DNA from: a virus
Virus record (IMG/VR): IMGVR_UViG_3300027861_000058
Location: 1-43,162 of that record
DNA length: 43,162 nt
Reading direction: 5' to 3' (one strand)
The notes beneath the pieces were generated by a model that worked only from the letters and a program-made list of their open reading frames with translations, had not been told where the DNA came from and did not search any database. This document shows positions 4,282 through 29,633 of this stretch, one piece after another (within the stretch, counting starts at the first letter, position 1; each line of letters opens with the position of its first letter). The translations under genes and the position numbers were made by a program.

Positions 4282-5169
4282 TTAGTCTTCCTTCGACTTT
4301 TTCACTGCTATCGCCTTGTCCTCCTTGGCTATCAATTCGTTCAGGTATTTGGCTATGTGTTTGCTTGATTTTGGAAGGCCGTCTTTGGATATGTCGTGTA
4401 ATATTTGAGCGGCTTCTCCTGGACGAAGAGGGATTTTTAACCCTTGTAGTATTTGAGATTTGCGAATCCTGAATGGAAGAGCGAGTATTCTTCCTACGTC
4501 CCTTGATAAAAAACGCTTTTTCTCCTTCTTTGTAGCTAGAGGATCATCTTCAACAAATCGGACTTTGAAATTCTTTTTGCCTCCTGGTGTCTGAAGTAAG
4601 TCATGGATATATTGAGTATCCTTGACATCACCACCAAATTCTTGTCCTCTGCGTAATCGAGCAGAGCCTACAAAGATTTTCCAGTTACCAGCATTAGGTA
4701 AGATCGACCTTTTGCCTAACTTAATTTCGCGTGACATGAAACGTCTGGGGCCTAAATAAGTGATTTTCGCACTGAAGGATTTACCACCTTTTTGATAAAT
4801 ACCTGTTCCTGCAAACCAATGAGCTGCTTGTAAAGCTTGAACACTTCTGGTTTCAGGATCTTCCGCTGGTTTCACAAAATAATCGGGAATTGCATCATAG
4901 TCGAGGTTCTTTTGTGCTTCTTTCTCGGCTTTGATTTGTGCTTTAATTTCTGCTTCAGCTTTCTTCATGGCTTTCTTAGCTTCAGCTTTCTTTTGAGCCT
5001 TGGCTATTTTGTCAGCCTTCTTGCGAGCTTTTTCTGCTTTTTCTTTCTTTGCTTCCTGTTCAGCCTTAACTCTTGCTTTTTTTTCAGCTAAGAAAGTTGC
5101 TTGTTCTTCTTCTTCTTGAGCTATAATAGCTAATTCTTCATCAGTTAATTCTTTGTTTTCTTCAGACAT
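4282..5169 (-). CDS. Head-associated protein with long charged coiled coil
   Basis: 295 aa, directly after the capsid gene. Residues 1-90 are an almost uninterrupted Lys/Glu/Ala helix (KKAEAKKAMKKAEAEIKAQ), typical of a long coiled coil. The rest is a globular basic domain with GKSFSAKITYLGPRRFMSREIKLGKR (residues ~128-153) and a helical end. No family recognised. It could be a capsid-lining or scaffold-like protein, or bind packaged DNA through its basic face. An AAAGGTGA Shine-Dalgarno sits before ATG 5169, separated from the capsid gene by a T-run. Confidence 0.6.
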   Translation of the reverse strand: MSEENKELTDEELAIIAQEEEEQATFLAEKKARVKAEQEAKKEKAEKARKKADKIAKAQKKAEAKKAMKKAEAEIKAQIKAEKEAQKNLDYDAIPDYFVKPAEDPETRSVQALQAAHWFAGTGIYQKGGKSFSAKITYLGPRRFMSREIKLGKRSILPNAGNWKIFVGSARLRRGQEFGGDVKDTQYIHDLLQTPGGKKNFKVRFVEDDPLATKKEKKRFLSRDVGRILALPFRIRKSQILQGLKIPLRPGEAAQILHDISKDGLPKSSKHIAKYLNELIAKEDKAIAVKKSKED

Positions 5170-5195
5170 AATAATTCACCTTTTTTAAAAACAAT

Positions 5196-5208
5196 AAAAA
5201 AATAGGGG
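5196..5208 (-). terminator. U-tract terminator/attenuator after the capsid gene
   Basis: Downstream of the capsid stop the minus strand reads CCCCTA followed by seven T, then ATTG. Such U-tracts suffice to terminate archaeal transcription. Partial termination here would yield more capsid mRNA than mRNA for downstream genes. No hairpin is obvious. Confidence 0.5.
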
Positions 5209-5221
5209 ATGGAGAGAGTAC

Positions 5222-6460
5222 CTAATTTAGGTACTTGATTGCTCCATGACAATTGAACTTGTCAGCACATAGCTGAGCCACAGTCAGGTACATGTACTTG
5301 TAATTGAACGAATCCAATAACAAGAAGTGAGCGTTTTCTGTATCCATGTAAACTGTGGGGAGAGCCACACGAATTTCGATGTGATCCATGTCTAACAGGT
5401 AAATGTTTCCATTACCACCTGCTTCACCATGAATGTCTTTGCTGGTGAAAATAGGTACTTCAATACCTGCTCCAACATAAGAACTGACTGCAAATCCAAT
5501 GCTTTCACCTTTTCTGGTGGAAACACCATTTTGAGTGCTGATCTTCCAGGGACTTTGACCTGAGGAATATCTTTGCTTAACTCCATCGAGAGCTTGGATC
5601 GAGTTGAGTTGAGATTCATCAGTTATCATGATGAAGTTTCTCGCTTCACTGTATTTTTTACAGTCAGAGATCATGTCATCAAGTAACCCTAATTGGAGGT
5701 TACGAAGAGTTCCACCATTGATGTCGTTATATGCTTCAGCTTCGTTGGCTGATCGATCAAATCCGTATATATCACAGTCACCTGCGTCTAACAGAGCCTC
5801 TTCAGCTCCATCACTACAAACTCGATCTATTGACTCAATGTAGTTGTCGAAGTTTCCACCAACTCTTGCGAGAGTGCCTGTGTCATAGGTCAATTTGGCA
5901 TTGATGTCTGAGGCATGTTGTTTGGACATGTAGAGTTTTGCCCATTCAGCGAAGTTTTGTCCTGGAGAATCTTGCCACCTGGTTTTGAGTTGTGCCAGTA
6001 AGCTTGAGTCCCAATGGTTATACATAACAGCAGGATCAGTGTAAGTCACTTCAACGAGAGTTGGAATGTCTGTTTCACCAAGAGCAGAGGCAGTTTCTAA
6101 TTGCCCGTAAAAGTTGCTCGGAGCTGCTGTGATAACTCTGAGAGAATCACCTTTCGCTTGATAGGTCGTCTTTTTCAAGAGCCTATAAACATCAGATTCA
6201 TGGTTCAGCCAATCAGTGGTCATTTTCCCATAGATTGGATTGAAATAATTAGTTTTAGTCGTTAAGAACGGATCATCTGCTTTCAAGAGGTCTTGATTGT
6301 GAACACTTGCTCCAATACCTTGACCACCCATTGATCCGAGTCCAAAAGCAGGGGTTTTGTTTCCCATGCCGAATTGTGGCCCCATGCCAAAGAAAGTTGC
6401 GGCATATTGGCCTTCATAAGTGACTTTCATTAAGTCGTCTATACTAAGTGGGGTTGCCAT
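5222..6460 (-). CDS. Major capsid protein (HK97 fold)
   Basis: 412 aa, following the protease-scaffold gene, as in most HK97-type viruses. A Gly/Met-rich N-terminus (residues 20-50, FGMGPQFGMGNKTPAFGLG) would form the flexible arm. TDIPTLVEVTYTDPAVMY resembles the strand that precedes the spine helix, and the C-terminal part has the usual P- and A-domain alternation, ending LLLDSFNYKYMYLTVAQL. An AAAAGGCGA Shine-Dalgarno precedes ATG 6460. A U-tract follows the gene. With a dedicated protease upstream, N-terminal trimming during maturation is likely. Family is inferred from order, length and pattern. Confidence 0.85.
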   Translation of the reverse strand: MATPLSIDDLMKVTYEGQYAATFFGMGPQFGMGNKTPAFGLGSMGGQGIGASVHNQDLLKADDPFLTTKTNYFNPIYGKMTTDWLNHESDVYRLLKKTTYQAKGDSLRVITAAPSNFYGQLETASALGETDIPTLVEVTYTDPAVMYNHWDSSLLAQLKTRWQDSPGQNFAEWAKLYMSKQHASDINAKLTYDTGTLARVGGNFDNYIESIDRVCSDGAEEALLDAGDCDIYGFDRSANEAEAYNDINGGTLRNLQLGLLDDMISDCKKYSEARNFIMITDESQLNSIQALDGVKQRYSSGQSPWKISTQNGVSTRKGESIGFAVSSYVGAGIEVPIFTSKDIHGEAGGNGNIYLLDMDHIEIRVALPTVYMDTENAHFLLLDSFNYKYMYLTVAQLCADKFNCHGAIKYLN

Positions 6461-14402: not shown

Positions 14403-14421
14403 TTTATATAGTAGTATGGTA
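14403..14421 (+). promoter_or_regulatory. Early promoter P1
   Basis: TATA box TTTATATA at 14403-14410 followed by AGTAGTATGGTA, a 12-mer found identically at P2 and P3. TATA to ATG is about 35 bases; expected start near 14430-14435, leaving a short leader with GGAG at 14433. Confidence 0.65.
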
Positions 14422-14440
14422 GTATATTACTTGGAGAGAT

Positions 14441-14716
14441 ATGATGAACCTAAACGAATTAATCAATCAATTCCAAAAAATCGAAAAAAAATATGAGATT
14501 ATTACCTATCTGAATACTCGTCTTGCTGATAAGAAAGCAATTCTTGAAGAGTTATCCGAAAGATTCTCTGATGATGATGATGTGAATGAGCAGAGAGAGA
14601 AGTCCTTATGGGACGATCTAAACGCTTATGAAGCCATCATTGAACAAGAGAAGATCATTCTGGACAACTACTTAGGAAAACTGCTTCGTATCATTATGAA
14701 GAGTCGGATAATTTAA
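14441..14716 (+). CDS. Small early helical protein
   Basis: 91 aa, first gene behind P1. Entirely helical and charged, with an acidic patch FSDDDDVNEQREKSLWDDL in the middle and a likely coiled coil on either side; the C-terminus KLLRIIMKSRII is basic and hydrophobic. The start has two adjacent ATGs (14441, 14444) and the gene start carries AACCTAAACGA, a variant of the recurring 11-mer. No family recognised. Control by P1 suggests an early host-takeover or regulatory role. Confidence 0.7.
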   Translation: MMNLNELINQFQKIEKKYEIITYLNTRLADKKAILEELSERFSDDDDVNEQREKSLWDDLNAYEAIIEQEKIILDNYLGKLLRIIMKSRII

Positions 14717-14720
14717 TTAT

Positions 14721-14785
14721 CTCTTCCTTTTTCTTTTTTCCAAGTATTAGCTGAAGTCAGACGTTCGGTAGAACGAATGACTTGG
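14721..14785 (+). ncRNA. Structured intergenic element A1
   Basis: A U-rich tract (14721-14739) runs straight into a predicted stem-loop. Outer stem CCAAG/CTTGG, asymmetric loop with conserved GTATTAGCTGAA, inner stem GTCA/TGAC, GA opposite AA, apical stem CGTTC/GAACG. The 3' side of the outer stem overlaps the Shine-Dalgarno TTGGAG of the next gene, so folding could hide it. Two related copies exist (A2, A3), with outer and apical stems of different sequence that still pair. Confidence 0.65.
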
Positions 14786-14795
14786 AGAAAGAACG

Positions 14796-15065
14796 ATGAG
14801 TCTAAGTGAACAATTTAACCGATGCTATCAAGCCATCAAATCTTTCGAAGAGGATGTCAAAGCGTTGGAGAAAATTATAGATGATCCTTCGACTATCGAA
14901 GATTATGGATGTGGAGATCCAGGTTGTAGTATATGCGTGGATCCTGATCCAGATCAGATAGTTGAACATGCCTATAATGAACTCCAAACTGCTTTCAGCA
15001 ATCTATCCAGAGCAGAGATGGAATTGGGAGTATTGGTGAACAAATCTATCTTAGGAATCAGGTAA
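14796..15065 (+). CDS. Small early protein with Cys cluster
   Basis: 89 aa. Two helices (QFNRCYQAIKSFEEDVKAL and the C-terminal AYNELQTAFSNLSRAEMEL) flank a loop DYGCGDPGCSICVDPDPDQ with three close cysteines, which could hold a metal or iron-sulfur centre. Preceded by TTGGAG within element A1. It is the second gene of the P1 unit and is followed by strong T-runs. No family recognised. Confidence 0.68.
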   Translation: MSLSEQFNRCYQAIKSFEEDVKALEKIIDDPSTIEDYGCGDPGCSICVDPDPDQIVEHAYNELQTAFSNLSRAEMELGVLVNKSILGIR

Positions 15066-15067
15066 CT

Positions 15068-15127
15068 GATTCCGCTTCCTTTTTTCTTTTTGGAAGGGTT
15101 TGCCAAGGGAAACCTTTTTCTTTTTTA
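15068..15127 (+). terminator. Terminator region of the P1 unit
   Basis: CTTCC, a T-rich stretch, then GGAAG forms one hairpin, followed by GGTTT...AAACC and a second run CTTTTTCTTTTTT. Two T-runs in tandem directly before the P2 operators should insulate the units. Confidence 0.6.
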
Positions 15128-15128
15128 T

Positions 15129-15169
15129 TGTGACACAATACTCATGTCTCGTGACATGTCTCAGTGACA
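15129..15169. promoter_or_regulatory. Operator array P2
   Basis: Contains TGTGACA (15129-15135) and two tandem boxes, TGTCTCGTGACA (15145-15156) and TGTCTCAGTGACA (15157-15169). Each box is a TGTC...GACA inverted repeat. The last box ends four bases from the TATA box, the same distance as in P3. Confidence 0.65.
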
Positions 15170-15170
15170 A

Positions 15171-15191
15171 AACTTAAATAGTAGTATGGTA
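15171..15191 (+). promoter_or_regulatory. Early promoter P2
   Basis: AACTTAAATAGTAGTATGGTA: TATA-like CTTAAATA at 15173-15180 and the 12-mer AGTAGTATGGTA. It is identical over 21 bases to P3 and drives the gene at 15215. Confidence 0.65.
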
Positions 15192-15214
15192 TTAAGTTAC
15201 TTGGAGTAATTTGA

Positions 15215-15469
15215 ATGAACCCAAACGAAACAAATGAGTATATTGAAAATTTCTTCGAAGAGAAAGAAATCGAACAAATAGACTACGAACTCTATGATAA
15301 AGGCGGCATGTGGAATTTAGTCCCAACTGAAGTTATCATTGAATTTATCAAAGGATTACCCTACAGGGCTAAACACCAAGTAGCAATAACAATCCTAAAG
15401 ATCGATTTAGTGAACGGACGAGTGGAAGATTATCTAAAACATATTGCTCAAAATATGATAGACCAGTAA
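15215..15469 (+). CDS. Small early protein, 84 aa
   Basis: MNPNETNEYIENFFEEKEIE..., with the start codon and first codons formed by ATGAACCCAAACGA, the recurring leader motif. Acidic helix, then strand and a helix LPYRAKHQVAITILKIDL followed by NGRVEDYLKHIAQNMI. The pattern '..IKxIDxxNGxxxxYLxxIA' resembles small conserved hypothetical proteins of phages and prokaryotes as I recall them; no function is known to me. First gene of the P2 unit, Shine-Dalgarno TTGGAG. Confidence 0.7.
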   Translation: MNPNETNEYIENFFEEKEIEQIDYELYDKGGMWNLVPTEVIIEFIKGLPYRAKHQVAITILKIDLVNGRVEDYLKHIAQNMIDQ

Positions 15470-15482
15470 TCTATCTTCCTTT

Positions 15483-15534
15483 CTTTTTTTAGGTATTAGC
15501 TGGGGTCAGACACTCGATAAAGAGTGACCTAAAA
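15483..15534 (+). ncRNA. Structured intergenic element A2
   Basis: Second copy of element A. The U-tract itself forms part of the outer stem: TTTTAGG pairs with CCTAAAA. Conserved loop GTATTAGCTGGG, then GTCAGA, apical stem CACTC/GAGTG around GATAAA. Sequence of outer and apical stems differs from A1 while pairing is kept. GGAACTGATG and GAAGAG lie between it and the next ATG. Confidence 0.65.
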
Positions 15535-15549
15535 GGAACTGATGAAGAG

Positions 15550-15969
15550 ATGAAACATACATACACCAATATTAGTGTGGAAATACCTGGACATGTCTAT
15601 GTCGATGCTGTTAAGCTTTTAGCTAACAACGACTGGGAATATACCACTAAGACCGATGAACGAGATGATATGCAATTTGTCAAAATAACACCTCACAGAA
15701 TGAGTGGAAAAATAGAGGTTGTTTTTCTTCAACGGATGAAAGTCATTACCAGAGCAGGAGATAAAGAAACATATTACCTCTCTGTAAATGTCGCTTATCT
15801 GAAGCGAGGAGAATCAAACGATTATTTCTCACATCTGCAAGAGATTCAGGATGGCAAAGATGCAATCGAAGAATTCTTGGCTATTGTGGGATTCGAGAAA
15901 GTCTTTGTATTGAAAGACATAATGATTGGCTATGCGAATAATGAACAACCCTACGTCTGGGAGGATTAA
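15550..15969 (+). CDS. Early protein, 139 aa, alpha-beta
   Basis: Alternating strands and helices: ISVEIPGHVYVDAVKLL, then FVKITPHRMSGKIEVVFLQRMKVITRAGD, YYLSVNVAYLKRGE, and a closing helix plus strand IEEFLAIVGFEKVFVLKDIMIGYANNE. The order of repeated strands is loosely like a CYTH-type barrel, but the signature ExExK motif is absent, so I do not assign it. Second gene of the P2 unit, behind element A2; followed by U-tract and element B1. Confidence 0.65.
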   Translation: MKHTYTNISVEIPGHVYVDAVKLLANNDWEYTTKTDERDDMQFVKITPHRMSGKIEVVFLQRMKVITRAGDKETYYLSVNVAYLKRGESNDYFSHLQEIQDGKDAIEEFLAIVGFEKVFVLKDIMIGYANNEQPYVWED

Positions 15970-15983
15970 ACTCCTCCATCCTT

Positions 15984-16034
15984 TTTTACCAGAGCAGGTG
16001 GGACACACTCCCTCAACAGAGGTGTCTGGTAAAA
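15984..16034 (+). ncRNA. Structured intergenic element B1
   Basis: A perfect 10-bp stem TTTTACCAGA/TCTGGTAAAA encloses 31 bases holding GCAGGTGG, ACACTCCCTCA and GAGGTG with an inner CCTC/GAGG hairpin. The U-tract after the preceding gene is the 5' strand of the stem. The core is 24/31 identical to B2, while the stem sequence is different yet still pairs. Confidence 0.65.
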
Positions 16035-16036
16035 CG

Positions 16037-16047
16037 AACCCAAACGA
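16037..16047 (+). repeat. Leader motif AACCCAAACGA (non-coding copy)
   Basis: Exact 11-mer found also at 15218-15228 and 18229-18239; one-base variants at 14447-14457 (AACCTAAACGA) and 27927-27937 (AACCCAAATGA), with a shorter AACCCAAAC at 29334. Here it lies upstream of ATG 16059 and out of its frame, so it is conserved as nucleic acid, not as peptide. Confidence 0.6.
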
Positions 16048-16058
16048 GTTGAATAAAC

Positions 16059-16655
16059 ATGAAACAAGTAACAGACTATCGAGGACGAATCTTTGAACCT
16101 GTTGGACGGTATTGGAAACTTGTCGGCAGTGATAATGAGAGAGTCTATCGAAAAGGCTTCAAAAAGAAAAAAATAGGGGAACGCCTTCATCCCTCCGCAT
16201 ATTTCAAGCGATCCTATAACTTCAAAGGTATTCCTAACCGCAAGATCAATACCATGAAGAAACGATGGGTCAAAAACTTGAAGCCTATTCCTATTTACAG
16301 GATCGATGGAATCCAATTCACTATGGTTCCCAAACCTAAGCCAAAGAAAAAGACCGAACCAGTTCCCTTTGTTAAGTTCTTTGAAGATCCTAAAAATAAG
16401 AAATATCTGTTAAAAGATGTGGACTATTGGATCAAATGGAACGAAATGAAAAACGAATCTCAAAGTCTGATGGATGTCATGGATTCAATTTCTAAGAGTT
16501 ATGAGTCTAACTTCATTAATGGTGAAGAAACTCCTTTCCGAGAGAGATTGTATGACATATTATCCACTCACAAAGACTACGAGATTGGGAATTATCAAGT
16601 TCGCAAAGTATCTTTATCTGAGCAGGATGACAAGGAGCTGAACTCGAATGCCTAA
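16059..16655 (+). CDS. Basic early protein, 198 aa
   Basis: Strongly basic: YRKGFKKKKIGERLHP, RKINTMKKRWVKNLKP and PKPKPKKKTEPVP in the first 110 residues, then an acidic-helical second half (DYWIKWNEMKNESQSLMDVMDSISKS). Possibly nucleic-acid binding through the basic half. No family recognised. No good Shine-Dalgarno near ATG; the leader holds element B1 and the AACCCAAACGA motif. Its end overlaps the next gene by 8 bp, suggesting coupling. Confidence 0.65.
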   Translation: MKQVTDYRGRIFEPVGRYWKLVGSDNERVYRKGFKKKKIGERLHPSAYFKRSYNFKGIPNRKINTMKKRWVKNLKPIPIYRIDGIQFTMVPKPKPKKKTEPVPFVKFFEDPKNKKYLLKDVDYWIKWNEMKNESQSLMDVMDSISKSYESNFINGEETPFRERLYDILSTHKDYEIGNYQVRKVSLSEQDDKELNSNA

Positions 16656-16962
16656 AAAGAAATACACCATAACTCTGTCTGTGGATGAAGACTTACATGA
16701 GTACCTCATGGAGCAAACAGGTGGATCTAAATGGCATCGAGGATCCTTCATCAAATCCATCCTTTACCAATGGAAAAATAATAAAATCTATCTTGGTGGA
16801 GGTAATGGTAATGGTTCAGATCATCAGGCTTCAACTGTGAGAACCAAGAAAGGATCCTTCGCTGTTGGAACCGCTCTCTATGATACAAGTAAGGTAAGTA
16901 TAATGGATCTCAATTCAGAGTTAAAACAAGCCTTTAAAGAGAGAGGAATTAAGGTCTCTTAA
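16648..16962 (+). CDS. Ribbon-helix-helix DNA-binding protein
   Basis: 104 aa. The N-terminus KKYTITLSVDEDLHEYLMEQ is the beta strand plus first helix of a CopG/Arc-type ribbon-helix-helix, followed by RGSFIKSILYQWKNN as the second helix (residues ~30-46). A Gly/Asn-rich linker (GGGNGNGSD) leads to a C-terminal extension. Such dimers bind short inverted repeats, so this is a candidate reader of the TGTC/GACA operators. The gene overlaps its upstream neighbour (ATG inside the last codons). Confidence 0.7.
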   Translation: MPKKKYTITLSVDEDLHEYLMEQTGGSKWHRGSFIKSILYQWKNNKIYLGGGNGNGSDHQASTVRTKKGSFAVGTALYDTSKVSIMDLNSELKQAFKERGIKVS

Positions 16963-16974
16963 CCCTCTCTCCTT

Positions 16975-17021
16975 TTTCTGACACAGGTGGACTACACTCC
17001 CTCATTGGAGGTGGTCAGGAA
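16975..17021 (+). ncRNA. Structured intergenic element B2
   Basis: CTGAC/GTCAG stem (extendable through TTT/AAA with a bulged base) encloses a 31-base core with ACAGGTGG, ACACTCCCTCA and GAGGTG, matching B1. Inner hairpin CCTC-ATTG-GAGG. It follows the U-tract CTCCTTTTT after the RHH gene and ends eight bases before ATG 17029. Confidence 0.65.
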
Positions 17022-17028
17022 ATAAAAA

Positions 17029-17184
17029 ATGTTTAAGCTATTAGATAATGATATGATTGGACACATGGCTGATGAACTGATGAATTTGCATAACAAGCTT
17101 TACACAGGAACACCTGTGAATAATGATGATATGACAATTTTATCAGGGATCATTGGAATCCTGAACCAGAATCATAGAAACTAA
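17029..17184 (+). CDS. Small early protein, 51 aa
   Basis: MFKLLDNDMIGHMADELMNL... ending ILNQNHRN at TAA 17184. Two helices separated by a TGTPVNNDD turn. No family recognised. It lies between element B2 and a strong hairpin terminator, which supports it as a real short gene; start ATG is eight bases after the B2 stem and GGTCAGGA could serve as ribosome binding site. Confidence 0.55.
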   Translation: MFKLLDNDMIGHMADELMNLHNKLYTGTPVNNDDMTILSGIIGILNQNHRN

Positions 17185-17192
17185 TCTTCACA

Positions 17193-17233
17193 GTTTTTTT
17201 TGGAGTCACCTTTTTGGTGGCTCCTTTTTTTTT
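17193..17233 (+). terminator. Hairpin terminator with flanking T-runs
   Basis: GGAGTCACC-TTTTT-GGTGGCTCC (one G-U pair) followed by nine T, and preceded by eight T. It closes the transcription unit of the gene ending at 17184. Confidence 0.8.
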
Positions 17234-17234
17234 G

Positions 17235-17327
17235 GTCTTCGTTCCTGGGAAATACACATGAACAAATTAGTGTCTCACTTTTCCTGGGTACGAGGCGTTG
17301 TGTCTCACAAACCTGGAGAAGAAAAAA
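17235..17327 (+). repeat. Leader with CCTGGG and GTGTCTCAC repeats
   Basis: Between terminator and the next gene, CCTGGG occurs at ~17244 and ~17283 and CCTGG again at ~17312; GTGTCTCAC occurs twice (~17270 and ~17300). The order is CCTGGG, GTGTCTCAC, CCTGGG, GTGTCTCAC, CCTGG. TGTCTC is also the left half of the P2 operator boxes, so this may be a regulator binding region. GGAGAAG precedes the next ATG. Confidence 0.45.
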
Positions 17328-17597
17328 ATGAACCCTGAAGCTAATGACTGGAAAACTGCTCGTTGGAAGCAAATCTTTGCCGATGCGAGAAAACAAATGA
17401 ATGATGGAAGAAAGGGCAAAAGGATTGACTGCCCACAGTGTAGAGCTTTCTACGGTGACTATCCTTCCGATTCTGAAGAATTTATGAAATCATGGCCACT
17501 GATGAAAGCCACTTACACGCGTAAGGAACGAAGCAAGTGGACGAAGATCGGATACTATTGCGAACAGTGTGAGCTCTTCATTCCGCTTATCCGATAA
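17328..17597 (+). CDS. Zinc-ribbon early protein
   Basis: 89 aa from ATG 17328 (MNPEANDWKTARWKQIFADA), with GGAG nine bases upstream. Two CxxC knuckles, CPQC (about residue 40) and CEQC (about residue 80), are 40 residues apart and would bind one zinc. The start ATGAACCC is a partial copy of the leader motif. The stop lies inside the convergent methyltransferase gene (11-bp overlap). Function unknown; nucleic-acid or protein binding is likely for such ribbons. Confidence 0.68.
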   Translation: MNPEANDWKTARWKQIFADARKQMNDGRKGKRIDCPQCRAFYGDYPSDSEEFMKSWPLMKATYTRKERSKWTKIGYYCEQCELFIPLIR

Positions 17598-20491: not shown

Positions 20492-20831
20492 CTTCCTTCT
20501 CGGTCTTCCTAGCTGAATCAACTTCGGCATCTTTAATCACCCTGGGAGAACATCGAATTTTTTTACATGTGAAACAAATCTGAGTTAGTGATTCATGATG
20601 GACTGTATAAGCTACCTGCTGGACATGTTTCTTTTGCTTACAATTAGCAATCCAAGATTCAATATAATCCTGAGGCATACTATCTTGAATGAAAACATCA
20701 TCACCAGTCTTCAATAATCGCCAGAGATTAGGAAAAGCTTTGGTTGGTAAACCTTTATGTTCTTCCTTAGTGTCTGCTTGTTTAATCCATACAGCCCATA
20801 GTGTATCTATTTCTTTTTTCAGATCGTTCAT
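20484..20831 (-). CDS. Hypothetical early protein, 115 aa
   Basis: First gene of the second small-gene unit. N-terminal helices (MNDLKKEIDTLWAVWIKQADT, FPNLWRLLKTG, YIESWIANCKQKK), then ICFTCKKIRC, a CxxCxxxxC cluster near residue 92, and an acidic tail ARKTEKEDD. The Cys cluster may bind zinc together with HH at 79-80. ATG 20831 follows a TATA-like CTTAAAAG about 17 bases upstream, so the mRNA may be nearly leaderless. Confidence 0.6.
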   Translation of the reverse strand: MNDLKKEIDTLWAVWIKQADTKEEHKGLPTKAFPNLWRLLKTGDDVFIQDSMPQDYIESWIANCKQKKHVQQVAYTVHHESLTQICFTCKKIRCSPRVIKDAEVDSARKTEKEDD

Positions 20832-20846
20832 TATTCATCACTATTT

Positions 20847-20854
20847 CTTTTAAG
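20847..20854 (-). promoter_or_regulatory. Candidate promoter of the second small-gene unit
   Basis: ACTTAAAAG on the minus strand, 16-24 bases before ATG 20831 and after the U-tract of the preceding unit. It resembles the CTTAAATAG box of P2/P3 and the box before the terminase genes. Confidence 0.4.
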
Positions 20855-20883
20855 TCGGTTAGTTCAAATACTTCGAATACTTC

Positions 20884-20897
20884 AAAAAAAAGGGGAA
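20884..20897 (-). terminator. U-tract terminator of the first small-gene unit
   Basis: CACTTCCCC followed by eight T on the minus strand, shortly after the stop at 20902. It separates the 17-gene unit upstream from the 11-gene unit downstream. Confidence 0.55.
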
Positions 20898-20901
20898 GTG
20901 A

Positions 20902-21294
20902 TTACTCCTCCTCATCGAGGTCAGTTTCGTCACTTTTTATGGGAGCAAACTTGAGTTCCTGCTCTTCCACGCGAACTTTCAATGTAGAAAGATATTTGTC
21001 TAATCGCTGTTTACGATTGGAGAAAATAACTAATAGACATTGTTCGCCTGTATCTTCGATATTAAGAGCTGTTTGCACAAGTTGAACTGTTGAGGGTTCA
21101 TCTTTAAACTCTAATTTGCATGGGAGTCTCACAGGCTTTTGTTGTCCATCCACAAAAATATGGAAGTCACCTTTGAGAACTAACTGGCGAGTTTCTTTCA
21201 CGCCATCTTTAGTAGTCTCTCTTTGCAGAGGGACAAATTTCATTGCAGTTAAAGCTGCTTTTATTCCATCTTGCTTTGTTGTCAATTCTTTCAT
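20902..21294 (-). CDS. Early protein with acidic C-terminal tail
   Basis: 130 aa from ATG 21294 (GAGG nine bases upstream; GTG 21297 also in frame). Beta-rich: RQLVLKGDFHIFVDGQQKPVRL, TVQLVQTALNIEDTGEQCLLVIFSN, TLKVRVEEQELKFAP, and a very acidic end DETDLDEEE. A strand-rich body with an acidic tail is the layout of single-stranded-DNA-binding proteins, so an SSB-like role is possible but no OB-fold motif can be proved by eye. Last gene of the first unit. Confidence 0.6.
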   Translation of the reverse strand: MKELTTKQDGIKAALTAMKFVPLQRETTKDGVKETRQLVLKGDFHIFVDGQQKPVRLPCKLEFKDEPSTVQLVQTALNIEDTGEQCLLVIFSNRKQRLDKYLSTLKVRVEEQELKFAPIKSDETDLDEEE

Positions 21295-27739: not shown

Positions 27740-27864
27740 TGTGACATAATTGTGACAGTAAAAAGTGGCTCCATTTGAGTAACCCTTCACGTACTTCTAT
27801 TTAAAGTTTTATGTGTGACACACTTGGGACATAACATTTTTCTCTGTGACCTGTCCCAGTGACA
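27740..27864. promoter_or_regulatory. Operator array P3
   Basis: TGTGACA at 27740-27746, 27751-27757 and 27814-27820, and TGTCCCAGTGACA at 27852-27864. A second TATA-like box, CTATTTAAAG, lies near 27797. The last box is placed four bases before the TATA box exactly as in P2. Confidence 0.62.
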
Positions 27865-27865
27865 A

Positions 27866-27886
27866 AACTTAAATAGTAGTATGGTA
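27866..27886 (+). promoter_or_regulatory. Early promoter P3
   Basis: AACTTAAATAGTAGTATGGTA, identical to P2 over 21 bases. The distance to the AACCCAAATGA motif is about 14 bases longer than in P1/P2, explained by the inserted hairpin at 27899-27914. Confidence 0.65.
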
Positions 27887-27898
27887 TTATAGTACATA

Positions 27899-27914
27899 GA
27901 GGAAGAAATTCCTC
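27899..27914 (+). promoter_or_regulatory. Leader hairpin GAGGAA-GAAA-TTCCTC
   Basis: Perfect 6-bp stem with a GAAA tetraloop directly before AAAGG of the P3 gene. It contains GAGG, which would otherwise act as a Shine-Dalgarno, so it may shape initiation. Confidence 0.6.
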
Positions 27915-27933
27915 TTAAAGGAAATGAACCCAA

Positions 27934-29253
27934 ATGAGTCGAACATTAACAACTCTAGAAAAGAAGCTTCCAAGACCAACAACCGTTGCAGAAGCAATTG
28001 AAATGGATTCCCGCTTGGAATATATTCCTATTCCAAAAGGAGTACAAGAACTGATTCACTCTGAAGATGAAACAGTTGAAACCAGTTTCGAGCATGACGA
28101 GAAAACCTATGTCCTTGATGAAGCAGTCATCAAGCAAGTGTCTCGCTATACAATTCGAGAGAATGAGAACGCTCAGTTAATCGTTTATAACGATCCTGAT
28201 GATGGTACTCATGAAGTCATTCGAGCTGTGTCTGCTCTATTTCGACCAATTCCTTTAGCCGAAGTATGGAAAAAAGCTGTGGAACGATTAGGTGAACCAA
28301 TCAAAGAGATCCAAACAAGTCAAGCTATCATAGCACAATTCGAGCCTGTATTGACAAAATACAGTAAAGAAGGCGAAGTGTTAGACACTGACTATGAAGT
28401 ATTTCCCACGATTGCTTTCTCTTACAACTTTGCAGAGAAAAGCTTTCAGTTAGGATTTACAGTCGGAGTCCCCTTCTGTGCTAATCAAATCTTTACTTTC
28501 TTTGGTGATTCTAAGATTGTTCATAATGTCCACAAGATCAATGCGAAGGACTTCACTATCGAAGCAGCTTTGGATACATTGATGAAAAACCTTACTCGCC
28601 TGGAAGAATTAATAGAAAAAGCTCAGACCACTGCCTTGAGACTTTATGAAGCTCCAGCCCTTTACTGGAAAGGAGTTCGCTCTCAAACCAAACCTCTTGA
28701 ATTAGTCTATGGCCAACACTATGAAATGATTGCTAAAAAAGGAGAGGGTAATTTAACCCTCTGGGATGCAATTATGAATCTCACCTGGGTAAGTACCCAC
28801 GACATTGAGAATGTGAATTCCTCTGTTGAGATGTCCACCGTAGCTGGCAAGACTTTGATTGAATTAGGTGAAGTCTTACCTGATGAATATGTCAAATCTC
28901 TTGGCTGGTATATGGAACACAAACGCAGAACAACTGGTCAAACCTGGAAGGATCAACCTTCAATTTTTCAGCGAATCAATCTAGTACCCCTTATGAGTCA
29001 CACGATTGCAGTTATTGAAGCTGCAATCCAATCTATCTGGGATCAACAGAACCGAGATGAAGAGGAACGACAACAAGCGGAAGACATCAAGACTGCTGAT
29101 TCAACCAAAGAGGTCAAGGAAATTCAAGACTGGTCTAATAACGCCTCAGATGAAGAGAAGAAGAACATGTTCCAAGAAACAGAGGATCCAGCAACTATCG
29201 AACCTTTACGAAGGAACGATAACTCTGCTTATCCTTATGCCGAAGAAGAGTAA
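27934..29253 (+). CDS. DUF932-like early protein, 439 aa
   Basis: Largest early gene. VFPTIAFSYNFAEKSFQLGF, then FTVGVPFCANQIFTF and HNVHKI, followed by long helices (DTLMKNLTRLEELIEKAQ) and TLWDAIMNLTWVSTHDI, resemble the order of the DUF932 phage/plasmid family ('R.vCtNG', 'H...', 'WD..N..T'), whose biochemical role is unclear. The last 75 residues are acidic and disordered (RDEEERQQAED, PYAEEE). A 25-codon overlapping frame begins at ATG 27924 (MNPNESNINN) and could act as an upstream ORF. First gene of the P3 unit. Confidence 0.6.
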   Translation: MSRTLTTLEKKLPRPTTVAEAIEMDSRLEYIPIPKGVQELIHSEDETVETSFEHDEKTYVLDEAVIKQVSRYTIRENENAQLIVYNDPDDGTHEVIRAVSALFRPIPLAEVWKKAVERLGEPIKEIQTSQAIIAQFEPVLTKYSKEGEVLDTDYEVFPTIAFSYNFAEKSFQLGFTVGVPFCANQIFTFFGDSKIVHNVHKINAKDFTIEAALDTLMKNLTRLEELIEKAQTTALRLYEAPALYWKGVRSQTKPLELVYGQHYEMIAKKGEGNLTLWDAIMNLTWVSTHDIENVNSSVEMSTVAGKTLIELGEVLPDEYVKSLGWYMEHKRRTTGQTWKDQPSIFQRINLVPLMSHTIAVIEAAIQSIWDQQNRDEEERQQAEDIKTADSTKEVKEIQDWSNNASDEEKKNMFQETEDPATIEPLRRNDNSAYPYAEEE

Positions 29254-29263
29254 TCTTCTTCTC

Positions 29264-29316
29264 TCTTTTTTTCCAATCGGTACTAGCTGAGGTCAGACGT
29301 TCATACGAATGACCGA
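29264..29316 (+). ncRNA. Structured intergenic element A3
   Basis: Third copy of element A: U-tract, outer stem TCGG/CCGA, conserved GTACTAGCTGAG, inner GGTCA/TGACC, GA opposite AA, apical CGT/ACG with TCAT loop. As with A1 and A2 it is located between the first and second gene of a unit driven by the shared promoter. Confidence 0.65.
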
Positions 29317-29330
29317 AAGGAGAAACAAAA

Positions 29331-29633
29331 ATGAACCCAAACTACGACCTGAAAAAAATCAAGACCCTCCTGAAAATGACTGAAGGCAAGGGAATGAATT
29401 TTGAGGAAAAGTGGACTCATATTGGAGAACAGTTTGGGGTGTCTCGTCATGCTGTAAGAAAATGGTATTATCGAGCCATAGAAAAAACCAAGGCAAAAGA
29501 TGAAAAACATATCACTTCAGACCAATGGCGAAACGCTTACCTGATCTTAACTGGAACATCCAATCGAGACAAAATTTCCACAATCAAACGAAAGATCGTT
29601 CTGTTATGTGAGGATGAGCCTATCGAGGCTTAG
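29331..29633 (+). CDS. Helix-turn-helix regulator
   Basis: 100 aa. HIGEQFGVSRHAVRKWYYRAIE (about residues 29-50) is a clear helix-turn-helix, after a helix KIKTLLKMTEGKGMNFEEKW; a second helical region DQWRNAYLILTGTSNRDKI follows. The start ATGAACCCAAAC carries the leader motif. AAAGGAG is nine bases upstream. A plausible regulator of the shared P1-P3 promoters or of the early/late switch. Its end overlaps the end of the convergent late gene by 14 bp. Confidence 0.7.
   Translation: MNPNYDLKKIKTLLKMTEGKGMNFEEKWTHIGEQFGVSRHAVRKWYYRAIEKTKAKDEKHITSDQWRNAYLILTGTSNRDKISTIKRKIVLLCEDEPIEA

Follow-up and report, generated by a model that had tools for sequence, protein, structure and literature searches.

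Two similar sequences follow U-tracts between consecutive genes in one region of an unstudied viral genome, which raises the question of whether they are copies of a structured RNA element and, if so, what such an element does at these junctions. The window, i.e. the whole stretch of DNA analysed, is a complete IMG/VR virus record of 43,162 bases with a 100-base direct repeat at its termini. Terminase and portal domains were detected in it by Pfam, and the 412-aa protein encoded at 5222-6460 corresponds to the major head protein in PHROGs. Its portal protein shows about 31% identity to haloviruses, and a portal-alignment search retrieved relatives with about 41-46% identity, many of which look like magrovirus contigs and some of which are contigs within archaeal genomes. 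Identity of the portal to the magrovirus-like contigs is about 44%. Judging from the portal relatives, the terminase and portal domains and the head protein, the window represents a tailed virus of archaea, and the collections searched contain no close relatives of it. The virus and its portal relatives have few structural genes in common, and the early region is not among the shared parts.

Several observations on these relatives were made along the way. The same portal family is present on contigs L039, L041, L044, L046, L047, L050 and L052, which are labelled as bacterial metagenome-assembled genomes (Cytophagaceae, Maricaulis, Omnitrophota, Altibacter, Patescibacteria and Melioribacter) and are probably mis-binned virus contigs. 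Positions 5685-16460 of L149 (G418 C4, about 110-121 kb) hold the portal, the head protein and other shared structural genes in one block within a 155-kb contig from a small archaeal genome, and this block is likely a provirus related to the virus studied here.

Within the window, three near-identical promoter-like repeats (at 14404, 15174 and 27869) each precede one plus-strand unit. The corresponding regions, 14404-14444, 15151-15209 and 27846-27904, carry TTAAATAGTAGTATGGTA or a close variant, with GTGACA/TGTCTC-like repeats upstream in two of the three, and they are probably archaeal early promoters with an operator. From the promoter-like repeats, the gene spacing and the terminator-like sequences we infer the following units, their operon status and the label 'early', where B denotes the element under study and A another structured element found at comparable positions:

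Unit 1, plus strand: gene 14441-14716, element A1, gene 14796-15065
Unit 2, plus strand: gene 15215-15469, element A2, gene 15550-15969, element B1, genes 16059-16655 and 16648-16962, element B2, gene 17029-17184
Unit 3, plus strand: gene 27934-29253, element A3, gene 29331-29633

Unit 2 ends in a terminator-like hairpin followed by T9 (17200-17233). Each U-tract-bearing internal junction of the three units has either A or B, with A in first position within every early unit and B at the junctions after it. The junction of the overlapping genes at 16648/16655 has neither a U-tract nor an element. The three promoter-proximal leaders also lack A and B, and the leaders of the first genes are too short to accommodate an element.

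Other recurrent motifs were seen in the same region. A GAACCCAAACGA motif is located at or near gene starts at 14446, 15217, 16036, 18228, 27926 and 29333; allowing up to two mismatches, it has 15 matches against 2.8 expected. It often codes for MNPNE, and at 16036, just 3' of B1, and at 27926 it is out of frame with the annotated gene. Upstream of gene 17328, the leader that follows the unit-2 terminator (17235-17328) carries duplicated GTGTCTCAC and CCTGG motifs and is possibly a third kind of element.

The two B junctions comprise the following features, with both elements delimited by the minimum-energy fold, pair probabilities and the two-sequence consensus:

15960-15977, plus strand: stop-codon hairpin of gene 15550-15969 (GGAGGA-TTAAAC-TCCTCC), forming the 5' side of the B1 junction
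15982-15987, plus strand: U-tract T6, the last four U's of which form the outer part of B1 P1
15984-16034, plus strand: element B1
15984-15993/16025-16034, plus strand: B1 P1
15995-15996/16023-16024, plus strand: B1 CA/UG pairs
15997-16000/16006-16009, plus strand: B1 P2, followed by unpaired C 16010
16011-16014/16019-16022, plus strand: B1 P3
15995-16024, plus strand: B1 conserved core
16059-16655, plus strand: gene downstream of B1 (198 aa)
16648-16962, plus strand: 104-aa gene overlapping the end of the 198-aa gene
16939-16971, plus strand: stop-codon hairpin of gene 16648-16962, forming the 5' side of the B2 junction
16973-16977, plus strand: U-tract T5, mostly within B2 P1
16974-17022, plus strand: element B2
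16974-16982/17014-17022, plus strand: B2 P1
16984-16985/17012-17013, plus strand: B2 CA/UG pairs
16986-16989/16995-16998, plus strand: B2 P2, followed by unpaired C 16999
17000-17003/17008-17011, plus strand: B2 P3
16984-17013, plus strand: B2 conserved core
17029-17184, plus strand: short gene downstream of B2 (51 aa)

The conserved core reads CAGGTGG-N3-ACACTCCCTCA-N3-GAGGTG, and the 30-nt cores of the two copies are identical at 24 positions arranged in blocks of 7, 11 and 6, the same number of matches as in the original prediction. Within the window the core matches only B1 and B2, the next best site reaching 15 of 24. Both copies are predicted to adopt the same three-way junction by minimum energy and by the two-sequence consensus: P1 is followed by one unpaired base, the CA/UG pairs, P2 (GGUG/CACU with a 5-nt loop), an unpaired C, P3 (CCUC/GAGG with a 4-nt loop) and the 3' strand of P1. 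An alternative P3 (CAC/GUG plus CUC/GAG with a UCC bulge) is disfavoured by the calculated pair probabilities, which still leave it some weight.

P1 is formed by UUUUACCAGA/UCUGGUAAAA in B1 and by UUUUCUGAC/GUCAGGAAA in B2, so that its sequence is almost completely different between the copies, yet pairs fully in both. Five of its pairs are altered on both sides and 100% of cells are paired, as compared to 47-55% paired and zero two-sided compensatory pairs when the partners of the whole structure are slid. These results bear out the proposal that the enclosing stems differ in sequence and nevertheless pair. P2 and P3 are invariant, therefore the covariation support is limited to P1. The U-tract had been described as part of the stem in B1; it is, and the same holds for B2, so the feature is not specific to B1. 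As predicted, B follows a U-tract and precedes a gene start, as A does, with T6 and T5 leading to genes 16059 and 17029, respectively; a covarying helix and a retained core thus lie upstream of both genes, as expected for a cis-regulatory RNA. The core begins 64 nt (B1) and 45 nt (B2) before the downstream gene start. A coding repeat or conserved peptide was considered and rejected because the frame of the core differs between the copies, both relative to the upstream genes (15995-15550 = 445; 16984-16648 = 336) and relative to the downstream starts.

Not every measure sets B apart from chance. For a sequence of this length, the raw identity of 24 out of 31 is close to the level of shuffled sequences, which reach 24-25 anywhere and 23 if both sites follow a T-run, and the folding-energy z-scores against shuffles (-0.7 and -0.8) are unremarkable, since T- and A-rich shuffles pair as well. 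What clearly exceeds chance is that the copies lie right after a T-run at an operon junction and that this T-run is also taken up into a P1 of 9 bp or more. A search of both early regions for T-run-anchored stems in which 9 or more contiguous pairs close off 24-45 nt yielded A1, A2, B1 and B2, whereas 100 dinucleotide shuffles of these regions contained 0.28 such stems on average and at most 2. On the minus strand, at 20831-20902, a T8 run also marks a junction where a 10-bp stem, different in sequence, may be anchored in the U-tract. Taken together, we consider it highly probable that B is a real, selected RNA element.

The junctions themselves have a common architecture that had been overlooked in the original prediction: at all five, a stop-codon hairpin lies before the U-tract of A or B. 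Upstream of A1, A2, A3 and B1 it has at least 6 bp and a loop that overlaps the stop codon, a configuration seen at 4.4% of random positions; its counterpart upstream of B2 is longer and consists of two parts. In each case the order is the stop codon in a hairpin, the U-tract, the element with the U-tract in its basal stem, and the next gene start. Inside the putative operon, both T6 and T5 provide at least four U's after a stop codon, as expected for terminator junctions. Early-gene ends with a stop-codon hairpin followed by a pyrimidine or U-tract are found at 14690-14745, 15040-15100, 15440-15495, 15940-15990, 16925-16980 and 29225-29280, with stems of 6-8 bp at most of them, and these hairpins may couple termination to translation. 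A stop-codon-spanning hairpin with U-tracts is also present on the minus strand directly 3' of the major head protein gene (5169-5222), where neither A nor B occurs.

Element A is represented by three copies:

14734-14791, plus strand: A1, at the first junction inside early unit 1
15484-15537, plus strand: A2, at the first junction inside early unit 2, which also contains B1 and B2
29266-29325, plus strand: A3, at the first junction inside early unit 3; a 2x2 AA/AA loop breaks its P1

A1 and A2 have the U-tract within P1, and in A3 it makes up the outer P1 segment. Of the 14 pairs of A, five are changed on both sides, which is the same kind of support as for B. The proposed parallel between A and B holds for the kind of junction and for the overall topology, as both have a U-tract-containing P1, three helices and zero nucleotides between P3 and the 3' strand of P1. 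It does not extend to homology: the core of A is GUAYUAGCUGRRGUCAGA, and in cross-searches the covariance model of each element failed to detect the other. The P2 loop of A, RRGU, resembles the end of the 5' strand of P1 (14739-14791, 15489-15537, 29276-29317), so that the 3' strand of P1 can pair with either partner. Competing folds are predicted for A1 and A3, and these models suggest a switch.

The expectation that B belongs to an RNA family extending beyond this genome was not borne out in the collections searched, where no second genome with B was found. Neither the full core pattern nor a structure-preserving pattern matched anything in IMG/VR, and the core is absent from the GTDB contigs. 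The relaxed pattern GGTGG-N4-CACTCCCTC-N4-GAGG had one IMG/VR match, which lies in coding sequence on the contig of an unrelated phage, and the element A pattern had two, both coding; all were dismissed as chance. Rfam 15 contains no match to B1 or B2 at E<=1, the sole match at this level being a sub-threshold ncS54 at the terminator (17167-17231). BLAST of the region against phage and plasmid records returned nothing, and no relatives were retrieved with the terminase or a 945-aa protein as bait. With covariance models of A and B, no convincing match emerged from 70 loci of related viruses, from 140 kb around related portal genes or from 12 whole genomes; a weak A match in L042 (E = 0.037) was rejected, as it overlaps the end of a coding region. 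U-tract-anchored stems in the relatives were scattered and mostly intragenic or unrelated. The absence of B from distant relatives is expected, given that they share few structural genes with this virus. B is therefore a singleton family in the collections searched (two copies in one genome), a structured RNA element that is new with respect to the databases searched and specific to this virus as far as visible.

What might such an element do? Each copy starts within a U-run expected to stop transcription and sits before the next gene, so B probably governs if, and in what manner, that gene is expressed. Archaeal U-tracts terminate transcription with aCPSF1/FttA, and aCPSF1 binds the U-tracts of terminators; in Methanococcus, intra-operon U-tract terminators lower or tune the expression of downstream genes (PMC8716108, PMC10450193). 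FttA requires about 36 nt of nascent RNA that is U-rich at -30 to -36, cuts near -22, and has a reported 5'-to-3' exonuclease activity besides its endonuclease activity (PMC11616081). We tentatively propose, at somewhat less than even confidence, that B promotes read-through by shielding the U-tract. As a cis-acting element on the plus strand at junctions of the viral early operon, B would fold once the polymerase has passed the U-tract, so that the U-tract becomes part of a duplex together with the adjoining 3' region where cleavage takes place. Recognition and cleavage of the aCPSF1/FttA type would thereby be blocked, and the downstream cistron would stay connected or receive a protected 5' end. 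The invariant core would most likely serve as a docking site for a viral or host factor that tunes the shielding. This proposal is consistent with the location of the U-tract within P1 of B1, B2, A1 and A2 and in the outer P1 segment of A3, with the four U-tract-anchored stems in the early regions against the shuffled mean of 0.28 and maximum of 2, with the compensatory changes in P1 of both elements, and with the confinement of the elements to internal junctions that have a stop-codon hairpin and a U-tract. If the U-tract is the recognised U-rich stretch, the FttA cut would fall at the 5' end of the B core, with the caveat that this geometry may not be that of the host. The same geometry could also count against shielding by letting FttA engage the U-tract before the 3' strand of P1 emerges, so that shielding would need slow termination or early folding of P2.

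A translational operator is an alternative of somewhat lower probability: B would fold at the start of the downstream cistron and hide the ribosome-binding sequence, and a viral protein or a ligand acting on the core would alter translation. Phage translational operators are RNA hairpins bound by viral proteins, and B resembles them in having a conserved core near a start codon and a paired ribosome-binding sequence. In A1, A2, A3 and B2 a Shine-Dalgarno-like GGAG/AGGA, missed in the original prediction, lies in the 3' strand of P1 and is paired with the pyrimidine/U-tract; the GAGGUG of the B core fits the general Shine-Dalgarno consensus and pairs with CCUC, and an invariant core with a freely varying P1 is the appearance expected of a protein operator. 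Phage operators differ from B in that B forms a three-way junction with its base in a terminator-like U-tract and such elements are found at several junctions. Against the operator reading, P1 of B1 has no Shine-Dalgarno sequence, and GAGGUG is 34 nt from the annotated start in B1 (15 nt in B2). The constant placement of the U-tract in the stem is left unexplained, as is the restriction to terminator-bearing junctions, although the leaders of first genes could not hold an element. Shielding of the U-tract is, we infer, slightly ahead of the other mechanisms, the translational operator being nearly as likely.

An unlikely explanation is 5'-end protection or processing, in which cleavage of the mRNA 3' of the stop-codon hairpin would leave B at the new 5' end, where the junction blocks 5'-to-3' exonucleases, that of FttA included (PMC11616081), yielding a stable mRNA of the next gene. 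The order of hairpin, U-tract and structured element at five out of five junctions is in its favour, but no pseudoknot or ring-like feature of exonuclease-resistant RNAs is evident in B, and a cut at the U-tract would shorten the very stem of which the U-tract is part. A site acting at the DNA level (an operator, a recombination site or the boundary of a mobile cassette) is very improbable. Exactly two genes lie between B1 and B2, which are in direct orientation and could be viewed as direct repeats around a two-gene cassette, but P1 covaries like an RNA stem among junctions that A also occupies, and no transposase or integrase was found among the plus-strand early genes scanned. Nor did inspection of 15980-16036 and 16969-17024 reveal attC-type RYYYAAC/GTTRRRY boxes, the R''/R' boxes of integron cassette boundaries. 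Chance similarity or a functionless recent duplication is the least probable reading. It would fit the near-shuffled raw identity and the occurrence of only two copies in a single genome, but not the placement and P1 design shared by five junctions with complementary changes in P1, and a recent neutral duplication would not leave the core intact while P1 and the flanks diverged.

Among the closest known systems are the put elements of phage HK022, two tandem stem-loops of about 70 nt located downstream of early promoters and upstream of their target terminators, which cause terminator read-through via contact with bacterial RNA polymerase (PMC9378689). Like putL and putR, the B copies are two similar nascent RNA structures of a viral early operon for which read-through is proposed, but B, with about 50 nt, folds as a three-way junction whose 5' end lies within a U-tract internal to an operon, shows no Rfam relation to put and lacks the structure and placement that characterise it. 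The B junctions also resemble the archaeal aCPSF1/FttA-dependent ioTTS, with a U-tract between co-transcribed genes and lower downstream expression expected (PMC10450193, PMC8716108). Unlike B junctions, where a stop-codon hairpin lies upstream and a structured element absorbs the U-tract, ioTTS are reported to require no hairpin. The literature searched contained no report of an archaeal virus with a cis-acting antiterminator or a structured RNA at gene junctions, and the transcriptome of the archaeal tailed virus HFTV1 shows no sign of antitermination (PMC12542753).

A broader and still less certain possibility is that the two three-way-junction families, A at first junctions and B at later ones, represent a cis-acting archaeal-virus antitermination system. 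By capturing the terminator U-tract they would guard the nascent RNA against the CPSF-type termination nuclease of archaea and so set graded expression along each early operon, perhaps under the control of a viral protein that binds the core. Shielding of U-tracts by B, if confirmed, would offer a direct handle on how aCPSF1/FttA-dependent termination in archaea is overridden, in a compact part of about 50 nt; as a translational operator, B would still constitute a new RNA family.
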